DNA from: an uncultured Hyphomonadaceae bacterium
Lineage (GTDB): Bacteria > Pseudomonadota > Alphaproteobacteria > Caulobacterales > Hyphomonadaceae
Reading direction: 5' to 3'
Length of the DNA stretch: 35,992 nucleotides
Assembly: GCA_938011445.1 (NCBI GenBank)
Contig: CALLUH010000102.1
Location: forward strand, 1-35,992
Positions 11,160 through 30,169 of the stretch are shown here, piece by piece. Both the position numbers and the translations under genes were made by a program. The notes beneath the pieces were generated by a model. It was not told where the DNA came from. It did not search any database and saw only the letters and a list, made by a program, of their open reading frames with translations. Within the stretch, counting starts at the first letter, position 1, and each line of letters opens with the position of its first letter.

Positions 11160-11750
11160 ATGCCAAGATTAAATGCCGCGCCTACCGACGCACTGGCCAA
11201 GGTCCAACCGCTTCTGGATCAGGCCGCCCAAGTGATGGGCTTTACGCCAAATTCGCTAAAGATCATGGCACGTTCACCCGCCATGCTTGAGGGCTTTATG
11301 GCGCTATCTTTTGCCTTGATGGGACCGGGCGCGAAACTCGACCCGCAATTGCGCCAGATGATTGCCAATATTACGAGCGTCGCGGCGGGGTGTAATTATT
11401 GTCAGGCACACACAGCACATGGGGCCGAACGCGTGGGCCTGCCAGCGGAGAAGGTCGAGACTCTCTGGATGTATGAAACAAGTGAGCATTTCAGCGAGGC
11501 AGAACGAGCCGCCCTCTCGCTGGCGCAAGCCGCTGGCAGCGTCCCGAACCAAGCCACAGAGGCACATTTCGAGGCGCTCAAAACCCATTTCAGCGAAGAC
11601 GAAATTGCCGAAATTGTCGGCATTATCTCCTATTTCGGATTTCTGAACCGCTGGAATGACACGCTGGCCACCCCGCTTGAAGAAAACCCGCTACGCTTTG
11701 GCGAAGCGCATCTCGCCGCGTCGGGCTGGAAAGTGGGCAATCATGGCTGA
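11160..11750 (+). CDS. Carboxymuconolactone decarboxylase / AhpD-like family protein
   Basis: 196 aa; AhpD-type CNYCQAHTAHGA CxxC...H motif; RBS acaaggag upstream. Confidence 0.9.
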   Translation: MPRLNAAPTDALAKVQPLLDQAAQVMGFTPNSLKIMARSPAMLEGFMALSFALMGPGAKLDPQLRQMIANITSVAAGCNYCQAHTAHGAERVGLPAEKVETLWMYETSEHFSEAERAALSLAQAAGSVPNQATEAHFEALKTHFSEDEIAEIVGIISYFGFLNRWNDTLATPLEENPLRFGEAHLAASGWKVGNHG

Positions 11751-12726
11751 GCGCTGGACCTATACCAAGGGGCTTAAAGAGCTTGGGGCTGGACAATACG
11801 CCTATTTACAGCCCGATGGCGGCTGGGGCTGGTCGAACGCCGGGCTAATCGTCGATGGCGAAGCCTCACTTCTGGTCGATACGCTGTTTGATATGCCCCT
11901 CACCTATGACATGCTCAAGACAATGAAAGATGCCGCCGGCGTCTCCGGCTCGGACATCCGCGTCATCGTCAACACCCATGCCAATGGCGACCATACCCAT
12001 GGCAATGGCTGCTGCCCCCATGCGGAGATTATCGCCTCTGAGGCGAGTGCGGCAGAAATGGAAGCTTTTGGGGCGAGTGAACTGGCGCAGATTATGAAGA
12101 TGGCGCCGCAGATGGGCGAAGTCGGGGCGTATTTTACCGATGTGTTCGGCATGTTCGATTTTGCCGGCGTCGAGGAACGCCTCCCAACACAGACATTTTC
12201 AGGCCAGCTTGACCTGACCGTGGGCGACCGCAAAGTCGAGCTGATCGAAGTCGGCCCGGCCCATACCGCAGGCGACGTTCTGGTGCATGTACCGGACACA
12301 GGCACGATCTATACCGGCGACATCCTGTTCATCAATTCAACACCCTTGATGTGGGCTGGCCCCGTTTCAAACTGGATTGCCGCTTGCGACCGGATTCTGG
12401 CGCTCAACCCAAGCGCAATTGTGCCCGGGCACGGCCCGATCACCGATGCGGCGGGGGTAAAGCAGGTTCAGGCCTATTTGCGCTATGTCGATGCCGAAGC
12501 CCGCAAACGCTATGATGCGGGGCTATCGGTGCGCGAGGCTTGCCATGATATTGCGCTGGGGGATTTCTCAAGCTGGGGCGACGCCGAGCGGATCGCGGTG
12601 AATGTCTCGACGCTTTATCGCGAATATGACGGCAAACTCGACGCACCCGATGATCCGGTTGGCCTGTTCGTGCTGATGAACGAGATGCGCACTGCCCAAC
12701 GTAACCAACATACAGCCGGACCTTAG
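11743..12726 (+). CDS. MBL-fold metallo-hydrolase
   Basis: VIVNTHANGDHTHGNGCC metal motif variant, GPAHTAGDVLVHVP, TGDILFI, PGHGPIT; ATG at 11743 overlaps the upstream stop (ATGGCTGA). Confidence 0.9.
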   Translation: MAERWTYTKGLKELGAGQYAYLQPDGGWGWSNAGLIVDGEASLLVDTLFDMPLTYDMLKTMKDAAGVSGSDIRVIVNTHANGDHTHGNGCCPHAEIIASEASAAEMEAFGASELAQIMKMAPQMGEVGAYFTDVFGMFDFAGVEERLPTQTFSGQLDLTVGDRKVELIEVGPAHTAGDVLVHVPDTGTIYTGDILFINSTPLMWAGPVSNWIAACDRILALNPSAIVPGHGPITDAAGVKQVQAYLRYVDAEARKRYDAGLSVREACHDIALGDFSSWGDAERIAVNVSTLYREYDGKLDAPDDPVGLFVLMNEMRTAQRNQHTAGP

Positions 12727-22653: not shown

Positions 22654-22686
22654 CGGTTTTAGAACTTGTCCCGGGTTCTAAAACCG
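22654..22686 (-). repeat. 12-bp perfect inverted repeat spanning the stop codon of the 22659-24221 CDS
   Basis: CGGTTTTAGAAC (22654-22665) / GTTCTAAAACCG (22675-22686), 9-nt loop; stop TAA lies in the stem. Confidence 0.85.
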
Positions 22687-24221
22687 CCACCCCCCCGTCT
22701 TGGCCTGTTCGAACGTGTCCGCCGACCCGAACGCCGCTTGGGCGAGCGGCCTCCTCGGCCTGAGCCAGCACCAAAGTCGCCAATATCAAACCCGCCGCCT
22801 CCGCTACGCATAGCTTCGCGGGCAATCTCCCAAGCCACATCACCGAGCACTTGTTCAAAGCCCTTTGAGCGCCTGCGATAATGTCTGCTGCGGTGCGTTC
22901 CCGAACGCCGCCGCTCACGCTTTTGTAGCCCCCTGGCCAAGCGCTTCATAACTTTCTCGACGCTCCGGTCCCCGCCAAGTAAATCGTCAACCGCCTCGTC
23001 AAGAGCAGCCGCATGAAACGCGACATGAGCACTATCAAAACCGGCTTTCTTAAATTTGGACCGCAGGTTTTCGAGCTTTTTCAGCTCCCAGCGGCGGCGC
23101 TCCGGCAAGACACCGTTCTCACTGGCGGAGAGGTCGATCTGCATTTCCTCTGCCCTTAACTTTACCAGCTTATCGACCTGCTCATCATCATCGCGTGTGC
23201 TGGTCTGGGCTGCCAGAACGCGCAAATCAGGAAAGCTGGCCTTGCGCAATTCCTGCTCGATCACGCGGCGAGCCTCACTGGCTGGCCCAGTACGCGCCTG
23301 CAAGGCGTCCTGATGCGCACGAGCCTTGGCAAGATGGGCCGTTTCGGACTGTTCAATCTTGCGATCAAGCACTTCCAGCGCCTCGCGTTCAGCTTCGGCA
23401 TTGTCCCGCAAAGCCGCTGCGCCGCCAGCTTCAAGCGATTTGGCTTCGGCGCCAGCCAAGGCTTCCAGTGCGTTCGATTCGAGAACGGCAACCCGCTCGA
23501 CATGTTCGGCCAGCCGGTCAGGCAGTTCGACGAGCCGTGCATAATTCAAGTGCGCCTTGTCATACCCGCATAGACCCGCCACCCAGCCATCGAGAAACCG
23601 GACAAATGGGCCGGCCTGATAGTCAGGGGTGCGAAACTGCCTGTCCCACAAATATGAAAACAGCGCGTCCTCATCATATGGCGCGCCTTTCTCTTCCCTG
23701 TCCGCACGCGCAAGCTCAAGCTTCTGCGCGGCGCGGTCCTGAACCAGTCGTGCCCGTTCAGCCGCATCCATAAGCTTTATATAATCAGGATCGTCTGCGA
23801 GCGCTTCAAGAATCTCTCTGCTTTTGTCCTGCCAAAGCTGAACACGCTCGTCGAGTGTCTGCGCTTGCGCCTCACGGTCCGCTTCGAGCCCTGCAATTTC
23901 CCCCGCCAGAGTGTCGAGCCGCGCCGTTTCACGTTCGACAAATTGCGCGTGCTGTTTCATCAGCTTGGCAGCTTTTTTGTCGAGGTCATGCAGGTTAGCG
24001 CCGTCACGCTGTTTGCGTAGCAAATCAATGCGCACATCAGCCATGGCGCGATAGGCCTCTAATTGTTCTTGTTGCACTTGTGCACTTCGCCGTGCCTGCA
24101 TATCCACCGTTTCAAGCGCCGAAGTAAGTGCACGACGGGCATCCGCGATCACCATATCTACAATATGCAAAGCATCGCGCCCATTAACGAGGCCAGAAGA
24201 AGATCGGTGCCGTTTTACCAT
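22659..24221 (-). CDS. Hypothetical coiled-coil protein with Arg/Gly-rich C-terminal tail
   Basis: 520 aa; long charged Ala/Glu-rich helical regions; tail GGGGFDIGDFGAGSGRGGRSPKRRSGRRTRSNRPRRGGGGFRTRDKF; ATG overlaps the stop of the upstream gene. Confidence 0.82.
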   Translation of the reverse strand: MVKRHRSSSGLVNGRDALHIVDMVIADARRALTSALETVDMQARRSAQVQQEQLEAYRAMADVRIDLLRKQRDGANLHDLDKKAAKLMKQHAQFVERETARLDTLAGEIAGLEADREAQAQTLDERVQLWQDKSREILEALADDPDYIKLMDAAERARLVQDRAAQKLELARADREEKGAPYDEDALFSYLWDRQFRTPDYQAGPFVRFLDGWVAGLCGYDKAHLNYARLVELPDRLAEHVERVAVLESNALEALAGAEAKSLEAGGAAALRDNAEAEREALEVLDRKIEQSETAHLAKARAHQDALQARTGPASEARRVIEQELRKASFPDLRVLAAQTSTRDDDEQVDKLVKLRAEEMQIDLSASENGVLPERRRWELKKLENLRSKFKKAGFDSAHVAFHAAALDEAVDDLLGGDRSVEKVMKRLARGLQKRERRRSGTHRSRHYRRRSKGFEQVLGDVAWEIAREAMRSGGGGFDIGDFGAGSGRGGRSPKRRSGRRTRSNRPRRGGGGFRTRDKF

Positions 24222-25159
24222 TCCAGTATCGCTCCGCCAGGCGTCGGCACCTGATATTCAGGCACCAGCACGCCGCGTGCTTTGGTTCCGATAATATCAT
24301 GCTGGATAATCTGATCATCGCTCTTGTCGGCAAGTATGCGATTGAAAGTCGCCTGGTCAACGCGCTGGGCCCAACGCTTGACGCGGGCACGGGTGTTCTC
24401 CTCCTCACTTTCGACGAAAACGTCCAGCACATCACCCGACGAGGTGACCGCCTCCACGATCAGATAATAGTTTCGCGCCAAGGGGGCGTCATCCGGCACC
24501 CGCGTGAAGCCGCTATCAGCACCACCGCGATAGCGTATCCGCACATCATAAATGGCTGACAAATCATCATACAAGGCTGACAATGCAGCAAGGTTTCCTT
24601 CAGCAGCTCTCACCTGACGGCGCTCGATAGCGGCCAAGCCATCCTGATAATAACCCTCGGCAATCCCGCCTACCCGCTCGGAGATAGCGAGGTCTTGAAC
24701 CCGATCCCGCATGGCACCTAGCTCAGTAGGCAATGTCACGTTCAGCGCCTGTTCAAGCCGAGCCTCCTCTGCGCGCTTGGGACCGGCAACCCCGAACTGG
24801 TAGACACCAAACCCGGCCAACAGCGCAATCAGTGCGCCCGTAACTTGCCGCCACCAACGCTCGCGCGAGACATAAAGCTTTGCAAGCCGAACGGGGAAGC
24901 CGCCCTTAGGGGGGTCATAGAGGAACCGTCGCTCCTCAAGCGCCTTTACGCCATCTTCGAGAATATGATCGGGCACCTCGATGCCTTGGGCGGTATATAT
25001 TTCCCGCAATCGCTTAATCAGATCAGCTTTGCGCGTCTCGGAGTCCAGCTCTGCACCAACCAATTGCTCGCGATGGCGCAGCGTGTCTACCACATCCATA
25101 GCGAGCATTACCTCGTCGAGCGTTTCCGGCGTTGGGTTAGATGGAGTTTCTTCGCTCAC
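24215..25159 (-). CDS. DUF6384-like membrane protein
   Basis: 314 aa; LDEVMLAMDVVDTLRHREQLV...LIKRLREIYTAQGIEVPDHILEDGVKALEERRFLYDPPKGG, single central TM (VTGALIALLAGFGVYQF); GTG start overlapping the upstream TGA. Confidence 0.75.
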   Translation of the reverse strand: MSEETPSNPTPETLDEVMLAMDVVDTLRHREQLVGAELDSETRKADLIKRLREIYTAQGIEVPDHILEDGVKALEERRFLYDPPKGGFPVRLAKLYVSRERWWRQVTGALIALLAGFGVYQFGVAGPKRAEEARLEQALNVTLPTELGAMRDRVQDLAISERVGGIAEGYYQDGLAAIERRQVRAAEGNLAALSALYDDLSAIYDVRIRYRGGADSGFTRVPDDAPLARNYYLIVEAVTSSGDVLDVFVESEEENTRARVKRWAQRVDQATFNRILADKSDDQIIQHDIIGTKARGVLVPEYQVPTPGGAILEW

Positions 25160-26352
25160 GAATCAGACGGTATCAGCGCGACCGCCGCTCCTTCTTGCAC
25201 GAGCCGGGTCAAGCGACGTTTGCCGTCCTCCACCGCATCGCGGATCTCTGCCGAGTTCTTTGTCGCCATCTGGCGCATTTCCACGATAATGCCTTGACTG
25301 CGCTCTTGATAAGATACGACGGAGTCCACCAGCATTTTTACCGAGGCCGCAGAAACGGTTGGCCCATAGCCCGCGCGTGTCGCCGCCTCCTGCACTTGTC
25401 CACCAATCTCGGCCAGCGTTTCGAGGCTCTGATCGACACCCCTTTTCATCGCCTCAAGCGCCTGGGTGCTTTCGTGCAGACCATGCATTCCGGTAAACGT
25501 TGCCGTAAGCGCAGTGAGGACAATCTCATTGGTTCCAAAAAAGCTTATGGACTGCGCGTAAATCCGCTCCTTGGCATTCGTCGTCTGGACAAGCCGTGCC
25601 ATGATAACTTCTGACGTATTGTAGCCAATCGTCAAATTATCGGAGAGGTCTTTTGCAATCTGATAGCGTTTCTCTTCTGCTTGCAGCATGCGCAATTGCT
25701 CATCACGTTTAAGCTCAAGCATTGCACGCTCGGCAGCATCATCGCCCGAATAGGCCTCCACCGCCGCCACAGCGCCACCAACCGCCTCACGCGCACCGTT
25801 CAGCCTCTCCTCTGCCGTCTTGAGCACATCGAGCGCCAACACTTCGGATTGCTTCAGCGCGCCTCGAAAATCGAGATAGGCTTCCAGAATGGTGCGCTCG
25901 CGCTCGATTTGATTGGCCGTCTCGCTTTGAACTTCGAGATAGAGATCTTTAATTTTACCGAACCGGCTTGCTATGTCGCCGCGGGTCATCTTCATCCAGA
26001 CATTCGATGCACGTTCCATGGTTGAAATCTTGCCATCAGCATATTGGTCAACAAGCGACTTGCTATCGTCACGAATGGAATTGAACGCTGTGGAGATCCC
26101 GTCATACCGTTCGCCAGTTTTCATGCCGGAGACATTTTCGCGAACCACATCATTAAAGGTGGACGACTGATCGAGCGTTCTTGCAATGGCTGTCACTTTG
26201 TCCGCATCAAGTTCGGATATCTGGTTGAGCAGAGCAACAATCGGCGCCGGATCGCCCGCCTTATCAGGCACGAGGCCAAGCTTGCGTAGCCCGCCCATTG
26301 CCCGATCCAGATATTGCAGTGCGCTCGGGCTCGATATTGCTAATTCAGTCAT
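25156..26352 (-). CDS. TelA-like (toxic anion resistance) helical protein
   Basis: MTELAISSPSALQYLDRAMGGLRKLG...; all-helical, layout resembles TelA/YaaN (ANQIERERTILEAYLDFRGALKQSEVLALDVL; MARLVQTTNAKERIYAQSISFFGTNEIVLTAL). Start revised to the ATG at 26352 from 26517. Confidence 0.65.
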   Translation of the reverse strand: MTELAISSPSALQYLDRAMGGLRKLGLVPDKAGDPAPIVALLNQISELDADKVTAIARTLDQSSTFNDVVRENVSGMKTGERYDGISTAFNSIRDDSKSLVDQYADGKISTMERASNVWMKMTRGDIASRFGKIKDLYLEVQSETANQIERERTILEAYLDFRGALKQSEVLALDVLKTAEERLNGAREAVGGAVAAVEAYSGDDAAERAMLELKRDEQLRMLQAEEKRYQIAKDLSDNLTIGYNTSEVIMARLVQTTNAKERIYAQSISFFGTNEIVLTALTATFTGMHGLHESTQALEAMKRGVDQSLETLAEIGGQVQEAATRAGYGPTVSAASVKMLVDSVVSYQERSQGIIVEMRQMATKNSAEIRDAVEDGKRRLTRLVQEGAAVALIPSDS

Positions 26353-26481
26353 ATGTCCTATCCCCTCGACACGGTGCGAAACACACCGCCTATGATGTAA
26401 AAATAGGGGGTCTCCCCCGCTTGGCGCAAGGCTGAAGTCAAAATTTCCCAAACGGGATGGCCATATTTCCGCCCGGAAATG

Positions 26482-26513
26482 ACAAAAGACCAATGACGTA
26501 CGCCATTGGTCTT
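26482..26513 (-). terminator. Candidate rho-independent terminator downstream of the M48 peptidase gene
   Basis: Perfect 10-bp stem AAGACCAATG (26486-26495) / CATTGGTCTT (26504-26513), 8-nt loop; on the minus strand the stem runs into TTTT. Confidence 0.7.
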
Positions 26514-26540
26514 CCAAAAGTCTTTCGTTCAGGGCGACCG

Positions 26541-27377
26541 CTAGATAACGTCATAGCCCTTGTCATTGATATATTGCCTAAGTTCCGTGGCACGATTGAG
26601 TGGATCAGGATGTGTAGACATGATTTCAGGTGGACGTTTGCCTTCGCTCTGGGCGGCCATCAAATCCCAAAGCCGTGGTGCCTCGCGCACCGAATAGCCC
26701 GCATTGTGCATATAATCGACGCCAAGCTTATCCGCCTCGGTCTCATGGTTCCGGCTATATGGCAGCACCACGCCAAATTGCAGCGCCGCCCCACCCAGCG
26801 CACCCAAAGAAGGACCAAAACCGCGCAGGGATTCTTGTGACGCAAGCGCAACTGATCCAACGCTCAACGCAGTTTGCGATGCGACGCTGACCGAGAGACG
26901 CTCTGCCGCATGCCGCCCCGTGACATGGCCAACTTCATGACCAAGGACAGAAGACAATTGATCATCATTCTCGGTTAGTTCGGTAATGCCGCGAAATACA
27001 CCGACCTTATTACCCGGCATCACAAAGGCATTGACCGTATCGGCATCGAAGACAGCCACTTCCCAATCTTCATCGCCCCGACCCGCACCATTTGCGATCC
27101 GGCTCCAATTCTCGTTCACACGGCCACGCAAGCGGCTGTCGGAAGTCTGTGGAATTTGGGTTTTCATATCCGACCATGCAGCCAGAGACATATTTGCTAT
27201 CTGCCCCTCATTCACGAGTAAAAACTGGCTGCGCCCCGTTTCAGGATTGGTCGTGCACCCACCTATGATCGGAAACACCGTTCCACAAGCCAGACCCGTA
27301 ATAATCGCACGTCTGGAAATATGTATTTCTGGCGCGCCCTCAAGCAAGCCCTCGGGAATGTCAATACGATCTTCCAT
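26541..27377 (-). CDS. M48 family metallopeptidase, probable lipoprotein
   Basis: 278 aa; HEVGHVTGRHAAERLS zinc motif; NHETEADKLGVDYM; lipobox-like IIGGC after SRRAIITGLACGTVFP. Confidence 0.9.
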   Translation of the reverse strand: MEDRIDIPEGLLEGAPEIHISRRAIITGLACGTVFPIIGGCTTNPETGRSQFLLVNEGQIANMSLAAWSDMKTQIPQTSDSRLRGRVNENWSRIANGAGRGDEDWEVAVFDADTVNAFVMPGNKVGVFRGITELTENDDQLSSVLGHEVGHVTGRHAAERLSVSVASQTALSVGSVALASQESLRGFGPSLGALGGAALQFGVVLPYSRNHETEADKLGVDYMHNAGYSVREAPRLWDLMAAQSEGKRPPEIMSTHPDPLNRATELRQYINDKGYDVI

Positions 27378-27550: not shown

Positions 27551-28717
27551 TTAGGTGTCCAGGCTATCGGGGCGTTCCAAGCGCTCGAGCAGAGCCTCCG
27601 CAGCGCTTTTCTTATCAGTATCAACCGCCTGATCGGACTTTGTATTTGCATCATCCGTTGCGCCGCCATCAATATAGGCCAAACGTCCTTCAAGATAGCG
27701 GTTGCGCCACCGCAAACGCGCTAATTCCTGCTCAATATCAGCAGGCTCCGGCGCGGGCTCCGCAGTGGTTTCCGTCTGGATAATATTAGGAACAGGATCA
27801 GCGGATGTCTCCTCGGGTGTCGGCTCCGTTTCGTCAGGCGCGTTTACGCGATGTTCGGATACACCGTGCTCTTCCATAAAGGCGAGGCGCTGTCGCAGAT
27901 ATTGGGTCTGCCAGACGGCTTTGTCACGCTCGACCGCAATCCTTGCCGCCTCGGCGTCGGGTACGTCGTCGTCCAAAGCCTTATCATCCATCACCTCTTG
28001 CCCAACGAGCACAGCTCCCGCACCAGCGGCCAGACCCGCAGCGCCCGCAACAACACCATGGTCGCGGGCTTTTTCATCAGCCAGGTCCTGTTCCAATACC
28101 GCTATCTGTTCGCGCAACGCCTTGTTATTGGCTTCAAGCGTTTCAACCTGTTCGCTTATATCTTCAACAATAGACGTTTCCGCTTCAGTCTCGGCAATCT
28201 GGGCGGGCTCTGCGACCGAGGTCTCAAGCGTCCGCACGCGGCTCTCAAGATACCGGTTGCGCCATTCAAGTTGAGCATTTCCAGCGTCCACGTCTGCGTC
28301 AAGTTTTGTAACAGGATCCGGGGCATCCTGTCCGCTTGTCGTGATCACGGCTCCTGTTCCGACCACCGCAGCCGAGGCGGCAGCAGCGGCGAGCATTTTC
28401 TTTTCACTGTCCGCCTTGAACGCGACCAATTCTTCGCGTGCGCTGACCAATTCGGCTTCCAACGCGCCAAGTTTGGCGTCTCGCGCCTGTAATTCCTGAT
28501 GGATTTGCCCATCATTCCCTTGTTTGCGCTGGGCCGCATATAGGCTATCAAGCTCCGCGCGAACCTGATCAAGCTCTGTCAACGCAATATTACGCTCAAC
28601 GATTGCTCGACGGGCACCGCCGCTCACACGGATGCCGCGGAAGGCCCAACCAAGAATGAGGCCAAAGAGGGCCGCCAGTCCGATAAAGATCCAGATGTGG
28701 GTAACAAGCCAGACCAT
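27551..28717 (-). CDS. Membrane-anchored coiled-coil protein with internal W-x3-YL-x2-R repeats
   Basis: 388 aa; N-terminal TM (VWLVTHIWIFIGLAALFGLILGWAF); three copies of a WxxxYLxxR motif; starts 4 nt after the OmpA-family stop. Confidence 0.85.
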   Translation of the reverse strand: MVWLVTHIWIFIGLAALFGLILGWAFRGIRVSGGARRAIVERNIALTELDQVRAELDSLYAAQRKQGNDGQIHQELQARDAKLGALEAELVSAREELVAFKADSEKKMLAAAAASAAVVGTGAVITTSGQDAPDPVTKLDADVDAGNAQLEWRNRYLESRVRTLETSVAEPAQIAETEAETSIVEDISEQVETLEANNKALREQIAVLEQDLADEKARDHGVVAGAAGLAAGAGAVLVGQEVMDDKALDDDVPDAEAARIAVERDKAVWQTQYLRQRLAFMEEHGVSEHRVNAPDETEPTPEETSADPVPNIIQTETTAEPAPEPADIEQELARLRWRNRYLEGRLAYIDGGATDDANTKSDQAVDTDKKSAAEALLERLERPDSLDT

Positions 28718-28720
28718 GTC

Positions 28721-30169
28721 CTAGCCCCCTTCAACTACTTTGAATTCGATGCGCCGGTTGGCCGCGCGGCCTTCGCGGGTTGCATTATCGGCGATCGGAA
28801 TGTCAGGACCGAACCCTATCGCATCCATGCGGTCGTCGGCAATCCCGCGCGCTGACATGTAATCTGCAACAGCCTGTGCGCGCGAACGGCTCAAAGAGAT
28901 ATTAAAACCACGATCACCTTGAGAATCTGTGTGTCCGGAAATCTGAAAGACAAAACCTTCGCACCGACGCGCCACGCCCATAAGCTTGTCAAGTGTGGCG
29001 CCACTTGACCGGTCAATTGTATTCTTTCCGCTTTCAAAAGTCACACGGTTTGTCGCCAATACCGCCCCAAAGGCTGTCTGGCAGGAGGCCAAAGCGTCGC
29101 TCTCGAAATCAAGTCCGGTGATCTCGGCAATATCGGAGTCCACCGCCTCCACATCAAGAACAATCGGAAAACTGGCCTCACTCGCCACATCATCTCGCAA
29201 GAAAGCAATGGCGCTGTCCGCCGCCTCTCCCGAAACGCGATAACCGTCTCCTTCCGGATCAAAGACAACAAGCCCCGATCGAAATCGCAAAAATTGCGGC
29301 AAAATCCGCCGGATCCCATCAAGCCAATCATCGTGCGCATGCTCGCCAATGACCATTTGATCGCTGATATTGCCTGAAAAACTGGACGAGACCAGTTCAA
29401 GAATTTCACCTCGTTCTGATTCGCTGTTCACCAGACCATGAAGTATCACCTCGTCCGCTTCCAGTGAGGCAGACCAAATTCCCGCGCCGCGAACATCCGC
29501 CTCCAATGTAAAATTATCATCAATGCCCGGCAAGCCATTGCGCAGGCTCGTGCGAAATATCGGCGACATTGACAAGCCTTCTATCCGAAGCACCTGATCA
29601 ATTAATTCCACTCGGCCATATTCAAGCTTATCGAGTTGCAGAAGGGCCTGATGCGCCACCATCAGCCAGTCCCCGTCCGGTTGACCGCTACCAATCTTTA
29701 TCCTGTTCTCAACTTCGCCAGGCGCGATCGCCTCGGCATCTATCTGCAAAGCCTCGATGGTCCGCTGGTCTGGTGCATAGCCGCTCAGGACAATACCGCC
29801 ATTGCGCATTTTTTCTGCCACCCAGATATAGGGCGAGATCGGCGCTCCAGCGATCACCTTATCGGTCAAACCTGTGATCGGCCCCATCCAACGATTGCCA
29901 AAAAGTCCTGACGCGGACAGCAATCGAATGGCACCATCCCCTGCGCCATCGCCTGGCGACTGACCTGACAAAGTTGCATGCTGACCGTCCATTTCGATCT
30001 CGGCCCAGCTATAGCCGTTCTCCTGCAAAACCGTCTTCGCCTGCCGCTCGATACCATCTTCAAGTGCGGCCGCGTTCTGGTTACCGCCATAGACAGCCCA
30101 AAAACCCGTTACCACGATACCAATCAGCGCTATGGCCGCCAATATCCAATCTACAAATCGCCCAAACAT
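28721..30169 (-). CDS. OmpA family protein with BON-like domain(s)
   Basis: 482 aa; N-terminal TM; C-terminal OmpA peptidoglycan-binding ISGHTDSQGDRGFNISLSRSRAQAVADYMSARGI...NRRIEF; N-terminal segment GIERQAKTVLQENGYSWAEIEMDGQHATLSG is BON-like. Confidence 0.87.
   Translation of the reverse strand: MFGRFVDWILAAIALIGIVVTGFWAVYGGNQNAAALEDGIERQAKTVLQENGYSWAEIEMDGQHATLSGQSPGDGAGDGAIRLLSASGLFGNRWMGPITGLTDKVIAGAPISPYIWVAEKMRNGGIVLSGYAPDQRTIEALQIDAEAIAPGEVENRIKIGSGQPDGDWLMVAHQALLQLDKLEYGRVELIDQVLRIEGLSMSPIFRTSLRNGLPGIDDNFTLEADVRGAGIWSASLEADEVILHGLVNSESERGEILELVSSSFSGNISDQMVIGEHAHDDWLDGIRRILPQFLRFRSGLVVFDPEGDGYRVSGEAADSAIAFLRDDVASEASFPIVLDVEAVDSDIAEITGLDFESDALASCQTAFGAVLATNRVTFESGKNTIDRSSGATLDKLMGVARRCEGFVFQISGHTDSQGDRGFNISLSRSRAQAVADYMSARGIADDRMDAIGFGPDIPIADNATREGRAANRRIEFKVVEGG

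Follow-up and report, generated by a model that had tools for sequence, protein, structure and literature searches.

A conserved three-gene unit of chromosomes, large plasmids and a jumbo phage as a candidate inner-membrane complex

Do three overlapping genes of a bacterial contig encode one molecular system, and if so, of what kind? This question is raised by a window of 35,992 nucleotides (nt), that is, the whole stretch of DNA analyzed here (contig CALLUH010000102.1, positions 1 to 35,992, of assembly GCA_938011445.1 from an uncultured Hyphomonadaceae bacterium), which carries three consecutive minus-strand genes, hereafter A, B and C and together the trio. Gene A (25156..26352; ATG at 26352, stop at 25156-25158) encodes a predicted all-helical soluble protein of 398 amino acids, gene B (24215..25159; GTG start at 25159, stop at 24215-24217) a protein of 314 amino acids with DUF6384 (PF19911), a domain of unknown function (DUF), and gene C (22659..24221; ATG at 24221) a coiled-coil protein of 520 amino acids with a low-complexity tail. 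The stop codon of A and the start codon of B overlap by 4 nt (GTGA, 25156..25159, minus strand) and the end of B and the start of C by 7 nt (24215..24221, minus strand), as in a translationally coupled operon on one strand, and the three overlapping open frames that a first-pass annotation of this DNA had described were recovered as such. The exact 4-nt overlap between A and B recurs in approximately 24 of 62 loci; in the remaining loci, the genes are mostly adjacent or at most 160 nt apart.

The distribution of these genes answers the first half of the question: A, B and C form a single conserved unit. Among 61 related genomes, 18 carried A, 19 carried B and 19 carried C, all within one and the same set of genomes (P = 1e-14 for the co-occurrence of A within B, if independent), the sole exception being G031, where C is retained and B is reduced to a 3' fragment, apparently in a degraded copy of the trio. 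Species-level genomes scanned with A yielded 57 loci, mostly from Hyphomonadaceae and Parvularculaceae, with the remainder from a small number of further alphaproteobacteria and a single contig under the label Kangiella, and all 53 genome contigs that reached far enough showed the order A-B-C. The same order was found in 10 of 10 plasmid records (Pseudomonas, Bradyrhizobium, Microvirga, Methylorubrum and Rhizobium; 335 kb to 1.39 Mb in size), in the three IMG/VR contigs holding the whole trio (a fourth contig is cut within B), and in the 262-kb Yersinia jumbo phage phiR1-37, where the trio corresponds to g190-g191-g192. In this phage, g190 is 40% identical to A, g191 matches DUF6384 at E = 4.7e-26, and g192 was recognized as C by its position, size and tail motif; a profile made from alphaproteobacterial C proteins alone misses g192, and the broader profile that finds it was built including g192. 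Across the phylum as a whole, the trio is a rarity, being present in 2 of 299 genomes. No other neighbor was seen to recur across lineages around the trio loci, and hence three genes suffice as the unit; a fourth gene following C on Pseudomonas plasmids was considered and set aside, being common to two sister megaplasmids only.

Further, the three gene trees have correlated pairwise distances (r = 0.90-0.93), with A evolving slowest and C fastest. The first-pass view of the trio as one unit is thus upheld by strict co-occurrence and fixed order, and an occurrence of the homologues scattered across genomes without each other is firmly rejected; the stoichiometric complex proposed at the same time is suggested by the co-occurrence and the correlated evolution. 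Consistent with the earlier annotation, we found no characterized function for the trio in the open-licence literature of PubMed Central, the only literature searchable, which likewise did not mention DUF6384 and returned nothing on 'merozoite surface protein 3b' (a label carried by some A homologues; see below) together with plasmids; the main texts consulted on plasmid pMPPla107 and on phiR1-37 gene expression do not mention g190-g192.

Within this unit, B is the member with a family. It matches PF19911 at E = 1.1e-108 and 363 bits (cut-off 25) across profile positions 5-308 of 308, thereby clearing the curated threshold and covering most of the profile, which also matches the B homologues of Pseudomonas and the phage; these are longer (440-498 amino acids in those scanned vs. 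314 here). The structure model of B consists of a helical N-terminal part, one transmembrane helix, and then C-terminal helices and a beta-rich domain (residues 204-314; 24218..24550, minus strand) with high predicted local distance difference test (pLDDT) values, the model being confident across the C-terminal half. The transmembrane helix coincides with the sole hydrophobic stretch of the protein (residues 106-124; 24788..24844, minus strand), its predicted membrane anchor, while neither A nor C has such a segment. Since Lys and Arg are richer on the N-terminal side of this stretch, the C-terminal domain is probably periplasmic. The earlier description of B as a DUF6384 protein with a single transmembrane segment therefore holds. 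A fold search with the B model against solved structures (PDB) found no convincing match, and a sequence search of the same structures gave chance matches only. On one Hyphomonadaceae contig, a partial second DUF6384 frame lies between B and C (L074:11102-11773), suggestive of a partial duplication of B.

A and C, on the other hand, gave no convincing match in Pfam, NCBIfam, PHROGs or PADLOC, and only chance matches in the sequence search of the PDB. C is about 40% identical to its homologues in other genera and coiled-coil-like in sequence, and its tail (approximately residues 475-520; 22662..22799, minus strand) is rich in Gly, Ser and Arg and has GGGFRTRDKF as its last ten residues, which carry a conserved aromatic-x-Thr-x-x-x-Phe-COOH ending. 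That is, among 26 distinct ten-residue endings of C, 24 have Phe or Trp at position -7, 24 have Thr at position -5 and 22 terminate in Phe, and in some sequences the motif stands in tandem repeat. The cationic tail that had been noted for C is real here and in nearly all chromosomal relatives (in complete proteins, the final 70 residues have a charge of +3 to +17) and fails as a conserved trait: across more than 60 sequences the same charge ranges from +17 to -7, and the Pseudomonas, rhizobial plasmid and phage homologues have acidic tails (-2 to -7). The tail property conserved from phage to alphaproteobacteria is instead the Gly/Ser richness combined with the aromatic-x-Thr-x-x-x-Phe ending, and a fixed C-terminal residue on a flexible tail suggests a docking peptide.

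A is the most conserved member of the trio, with 75-79% identity in other Hyphomonadaceae genera in addition to the 40% seen in the phage, and its homologues bear labels such as 'cell surface protein' or 'merozoite surface protein 3b' in other records. Its structure model is all-helical, with long helices at residues 126-200 and 206-287 that are mostly confident, followed by an uncertain part at residues 284-333. The long-helical character expected for the products thus fits the predicted structure of A and the coiled-coil-like sequence of C. The PDB fold search with A returned generic long-helix matches, pore-forming toxins included, and was judged uninformative.

We favor the explanation that the three proteins act as obligate members of a single complex anchored in the membrane. 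B would reside in the inner membrane through its single helix, with the DUF6384 domain exposed to the periplasm, and its conserved cytoplasmic N-terminal part would recruit A, which would be the long, helical and slowly evolving core in the cytoplasm. C would act as a cytoplasmic coiled coil whose Gly/Ser tail docks via the aromatic-x-Thr-x-x-x-Phe-COOH ending, and such docking could cluster or bridge complexes under the membrane. Most probably, the complex would stabilize or sense the state of the envelope, a task comparable to the part in stress that has been ascribed to TelA-type proteins, and some chromosomes, very large plasmids and a jumbo phage would keep the trio because it is protective under envelope stress. 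Taken as a whole, from membrane anchor, core and docking to envelope protection, we give this explanation somewhat less than an even chance of being right. That the trio represents a new inner-membrane machine of three parts, separate from both Ter and the known defence systems, in which the Phe-ended tail of C docks on a highly conserved helical core, and which occurs in chromosomes of alphaproteobacteria, in megaplasmids of Pseudomonas and rhizobia and in a jumbo phage, appears close to an even call, if still just short of one.

Alternatively, A might be a true but very divergent TelA homologue and the trio the alphaproteobacterial counterpart of TelA stress modules, a reading that is compatible with the complex just described and that we consider possible but doubtful. 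A resemblance to TelA had been noted for A at first and, at the sequence level, membership of this family was not supported: the PF05816 (TelA) profile had no match in A, in 18 A homologues or in genome G000 based on hmmscan, and hhalign gave a probability of 1-5% for A vs. TelA (3-5% against a 38-member TelA alignment), i.e., near background, the weak profile-profile alignments being roughly colinear. This profile-profile test used small and large alignments and included reversed controls as well as block-shuffled decoys of the TelA alignment, which reached or exceeded the score of A in 2 of 100 local and at least 8 of 100 global comparisons; these decoys preserve local helix content only, and the test is thus weak both ways. 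In a search of viral folds with A (Foldseek), TelA-annotated phage proteins ranked 13, 14 and 16 (E of 0.025-0.034, probability of 0.80-0.98, template modelling (TM) scores of 0.23-0.36), values at which any long-helix protein matches similarly, and two of them had the best TM-scores (0.32-0.36) among the listed matches of similar length; every structure match had an E above 0.001. A TelA-like fold of A is therefore only hinted at by the models, in a manner that is suggestive and not significant. Among the 61 relatives, TelA was found in 11 and the trio in 19 genomes with none shared, which would have P = 0.01 under independence of the genomes, an assumption that does not hold, and this mutual exclusion tracks family boundaries (phylogenetic confounding); the TelA loci never contained relatives of A, B or C. 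In favor of a link to stress modules, plasmids pBASL58 and pMPPla107 encode, within some 4 kb on the upstream side of the trio, StiP, a protease of the tellurite type (the single copy scanned has a PELOTA domain), together with a PTH2-like protein. Very divergent TelA-like proteins (E of about 1e-6 to 1e-17) also exist in related genomes (G037:C23:61750-62379, G041:C6:130585-130980, G220:C53:62130-63134 and G149:C15:13241-14146) and could bridge TelA and other helical families.

The patchy presence of the trio (the 19 of 61 relatives and 2 of 299 genomes given above), its location on Pseudomonas megaplasmids, two of which carry CRISPR-associated genes (CRISPR, clustered regularly interspaced short palindromic repeats) within about 12 kb, the integrase-like open reading frame found 1-2 kb or more from it in two IMG/VR contigs, and its completeness in phage phiR1-37 might instead point to an anti-phage or superinfection-exclusion system, that is, a membrane anchor with two helical proteins that would react when infection reaches the envelope. 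We regard this as unlikely, however: PADLOC-DB 2.0.0 gave only chance-level matches for all three proteins, whether in the version from the window, a plasmid or the phage, the recurring neighbors in Hyphomonas and relatives resemble ordinary chromosomal genes rather than a defence island, and the trio has no recognizable effector domain. It seems less probable still that, instead of protecting against stress, the trio has a role for large replicons or in the architecture of the cell, be it anchoring, segregation or membrane scaffolding, with C and A as filaments or a scaffold attached by B. The size of the plasmid and phage carriers (323 kb to 1.39 Mb and 262 kb, respectively) and the suitability of a long helical A and a coiled-coil C for a scaffold speak for it, but the trio includes no ParA/ParB-like or tubulin/actin-like member and adjoins ordinary chromosomal genes in most carriers, and the structural argument is weak, as long-helix proteins match everything helical. 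Finally, overlapping genes are common in bacterial operons, and the three could in principle be chance neighbors that are translationally coupled without a joint function; such a reading, which we deem exceedingly improbable, is refuted by the conservation of their order and company across alphaproteobacteria, Pseudomonas and a phage in otherwise unrelated surroundings.

Returning to the membrane-anchored complex that we favor, several observations weigh against it or temper it. The TelA resemblance of A is below significance in both sequence and structure; a well-conserved region of A (residues 284-333) is modelled at low confidence, and the models of A and B are of moderate overall confidence (predicted template modelling (pTM) scores of 0.62 and 0.58, respectively); the correlated tree distances would also follow from shared vertical descent; and the recurring alphaproteobacterial neighbors look ordinary chromosomal, without any hint of stress or defence. 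Moreover, TerD was not found in genome G000, five related genomes or the phage, nor on three of the six plasmids tested; on the other three, which include pBASL58 and pMPPla107, it is encoded elsewhere on the plasmid. The absence of TerD from the tested alphaproteobacterial chromosomes and phage indicates that the trio does not depend on Ter.

In the window itself, an M48 peptidase gene lies upstream of the trio and ends at 26541. It is followed on its 3' side by a long hairpin with a T-rich run (26465..26530, minus strand; folding z = -4.0), a likely terminator, and hence the trio and the M48 gene probably belong to separate transcripts. The leader of gene A contains a further, small GC hairpin with a T run, GGGGGAGACCCCC (26405..26418, minus strand), about 53 nt before the A start; it may represent a terminator or attenuator, and sites of this kind were about as frequent in our scan as expected by chance. 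From the downstream side, a peroxiredoxin gene converges on the trio. Farther upstream and on the same strand (27551-30169), genes for an OmpA/BON protein and for a 388-amino-acid protein with a transmembrane segment, a coiled coil and repeated 'WRNRYLE' segments are spaced 3 nt apart and constitute a separate possible envelope pair, outside the trio. Elsewhere, two Parvularculaceae-type loci have an extra open reading frame of about 200 codons between B and C (L083:11132-11743 and L091, approximately 11242-11908) with an H.YH.W.HI...YHDAVY pattern that is HD-hydrolase-like by eye, the one tested having no Pfam match. The two plasmids with StiP (loci L112 for pBASL58 and L113 for pMPPla107) also share, downstream of the trio, a gene for an unknown protein of about 225 amino acids and a dCTP deaminase gene, and pMPPla107 has a metallophosphoesterase gene directly upstream of the trio as well.

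The trio is new in composition, as the literature searched describes no system composed in this way. For two of its three families (A and C), none of the protein-family libraries searched has an entry, the remaining one being a DUF, and it is important to note that our claim of novelty concerns this composition and not a mechanism. With the recognition of an obligate unit, what were three unknowns become a single system open to testing, with A, B and C as its minimal set and a docking-motif hypothesis, and the several carrier hosts, cultured ones such as Hirschia maritima and Methylorubrum extorquens AM1 among them, offer a choice for such testing. That a jumbo phage and very large plasmids carry the trio further raises the question of what these elements gain from an envelope-linked complex.

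How, then, does the trio compare to known systems? Like A, members of the TelA family (PF05816) are helical proteins of 360-400 amino acids, and among the fold matches of A that are similar to it in length, phage proteins annotated as TelA belong to the better ones; however, the two have no profile match, no shared neighbors and no co-occurrence. ClyA-type alpha-pore-forming proteins appeared as weak long-helix matches of A in the PDB fold search (E > 0.01, TM-scores of 0.2-0.3), with no sequence similarity found, and their likeness to A is that of generic long-helix proteins. For the Ter stress system, the likeness consists in the occurrence of the StiP-PELOTA and PTH2-like genes near the trio on pBASL58 and pMPPla107 and of TerD elsewhere on three of the six plasmids tested; given the lack of TerD in the other carriers tested, the trio is not a Ter component but may serve a related need. 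Lastly, the DUF6384 (PF19911) family, to which no function has been assigned, is represented here as one part of an obligate trio.

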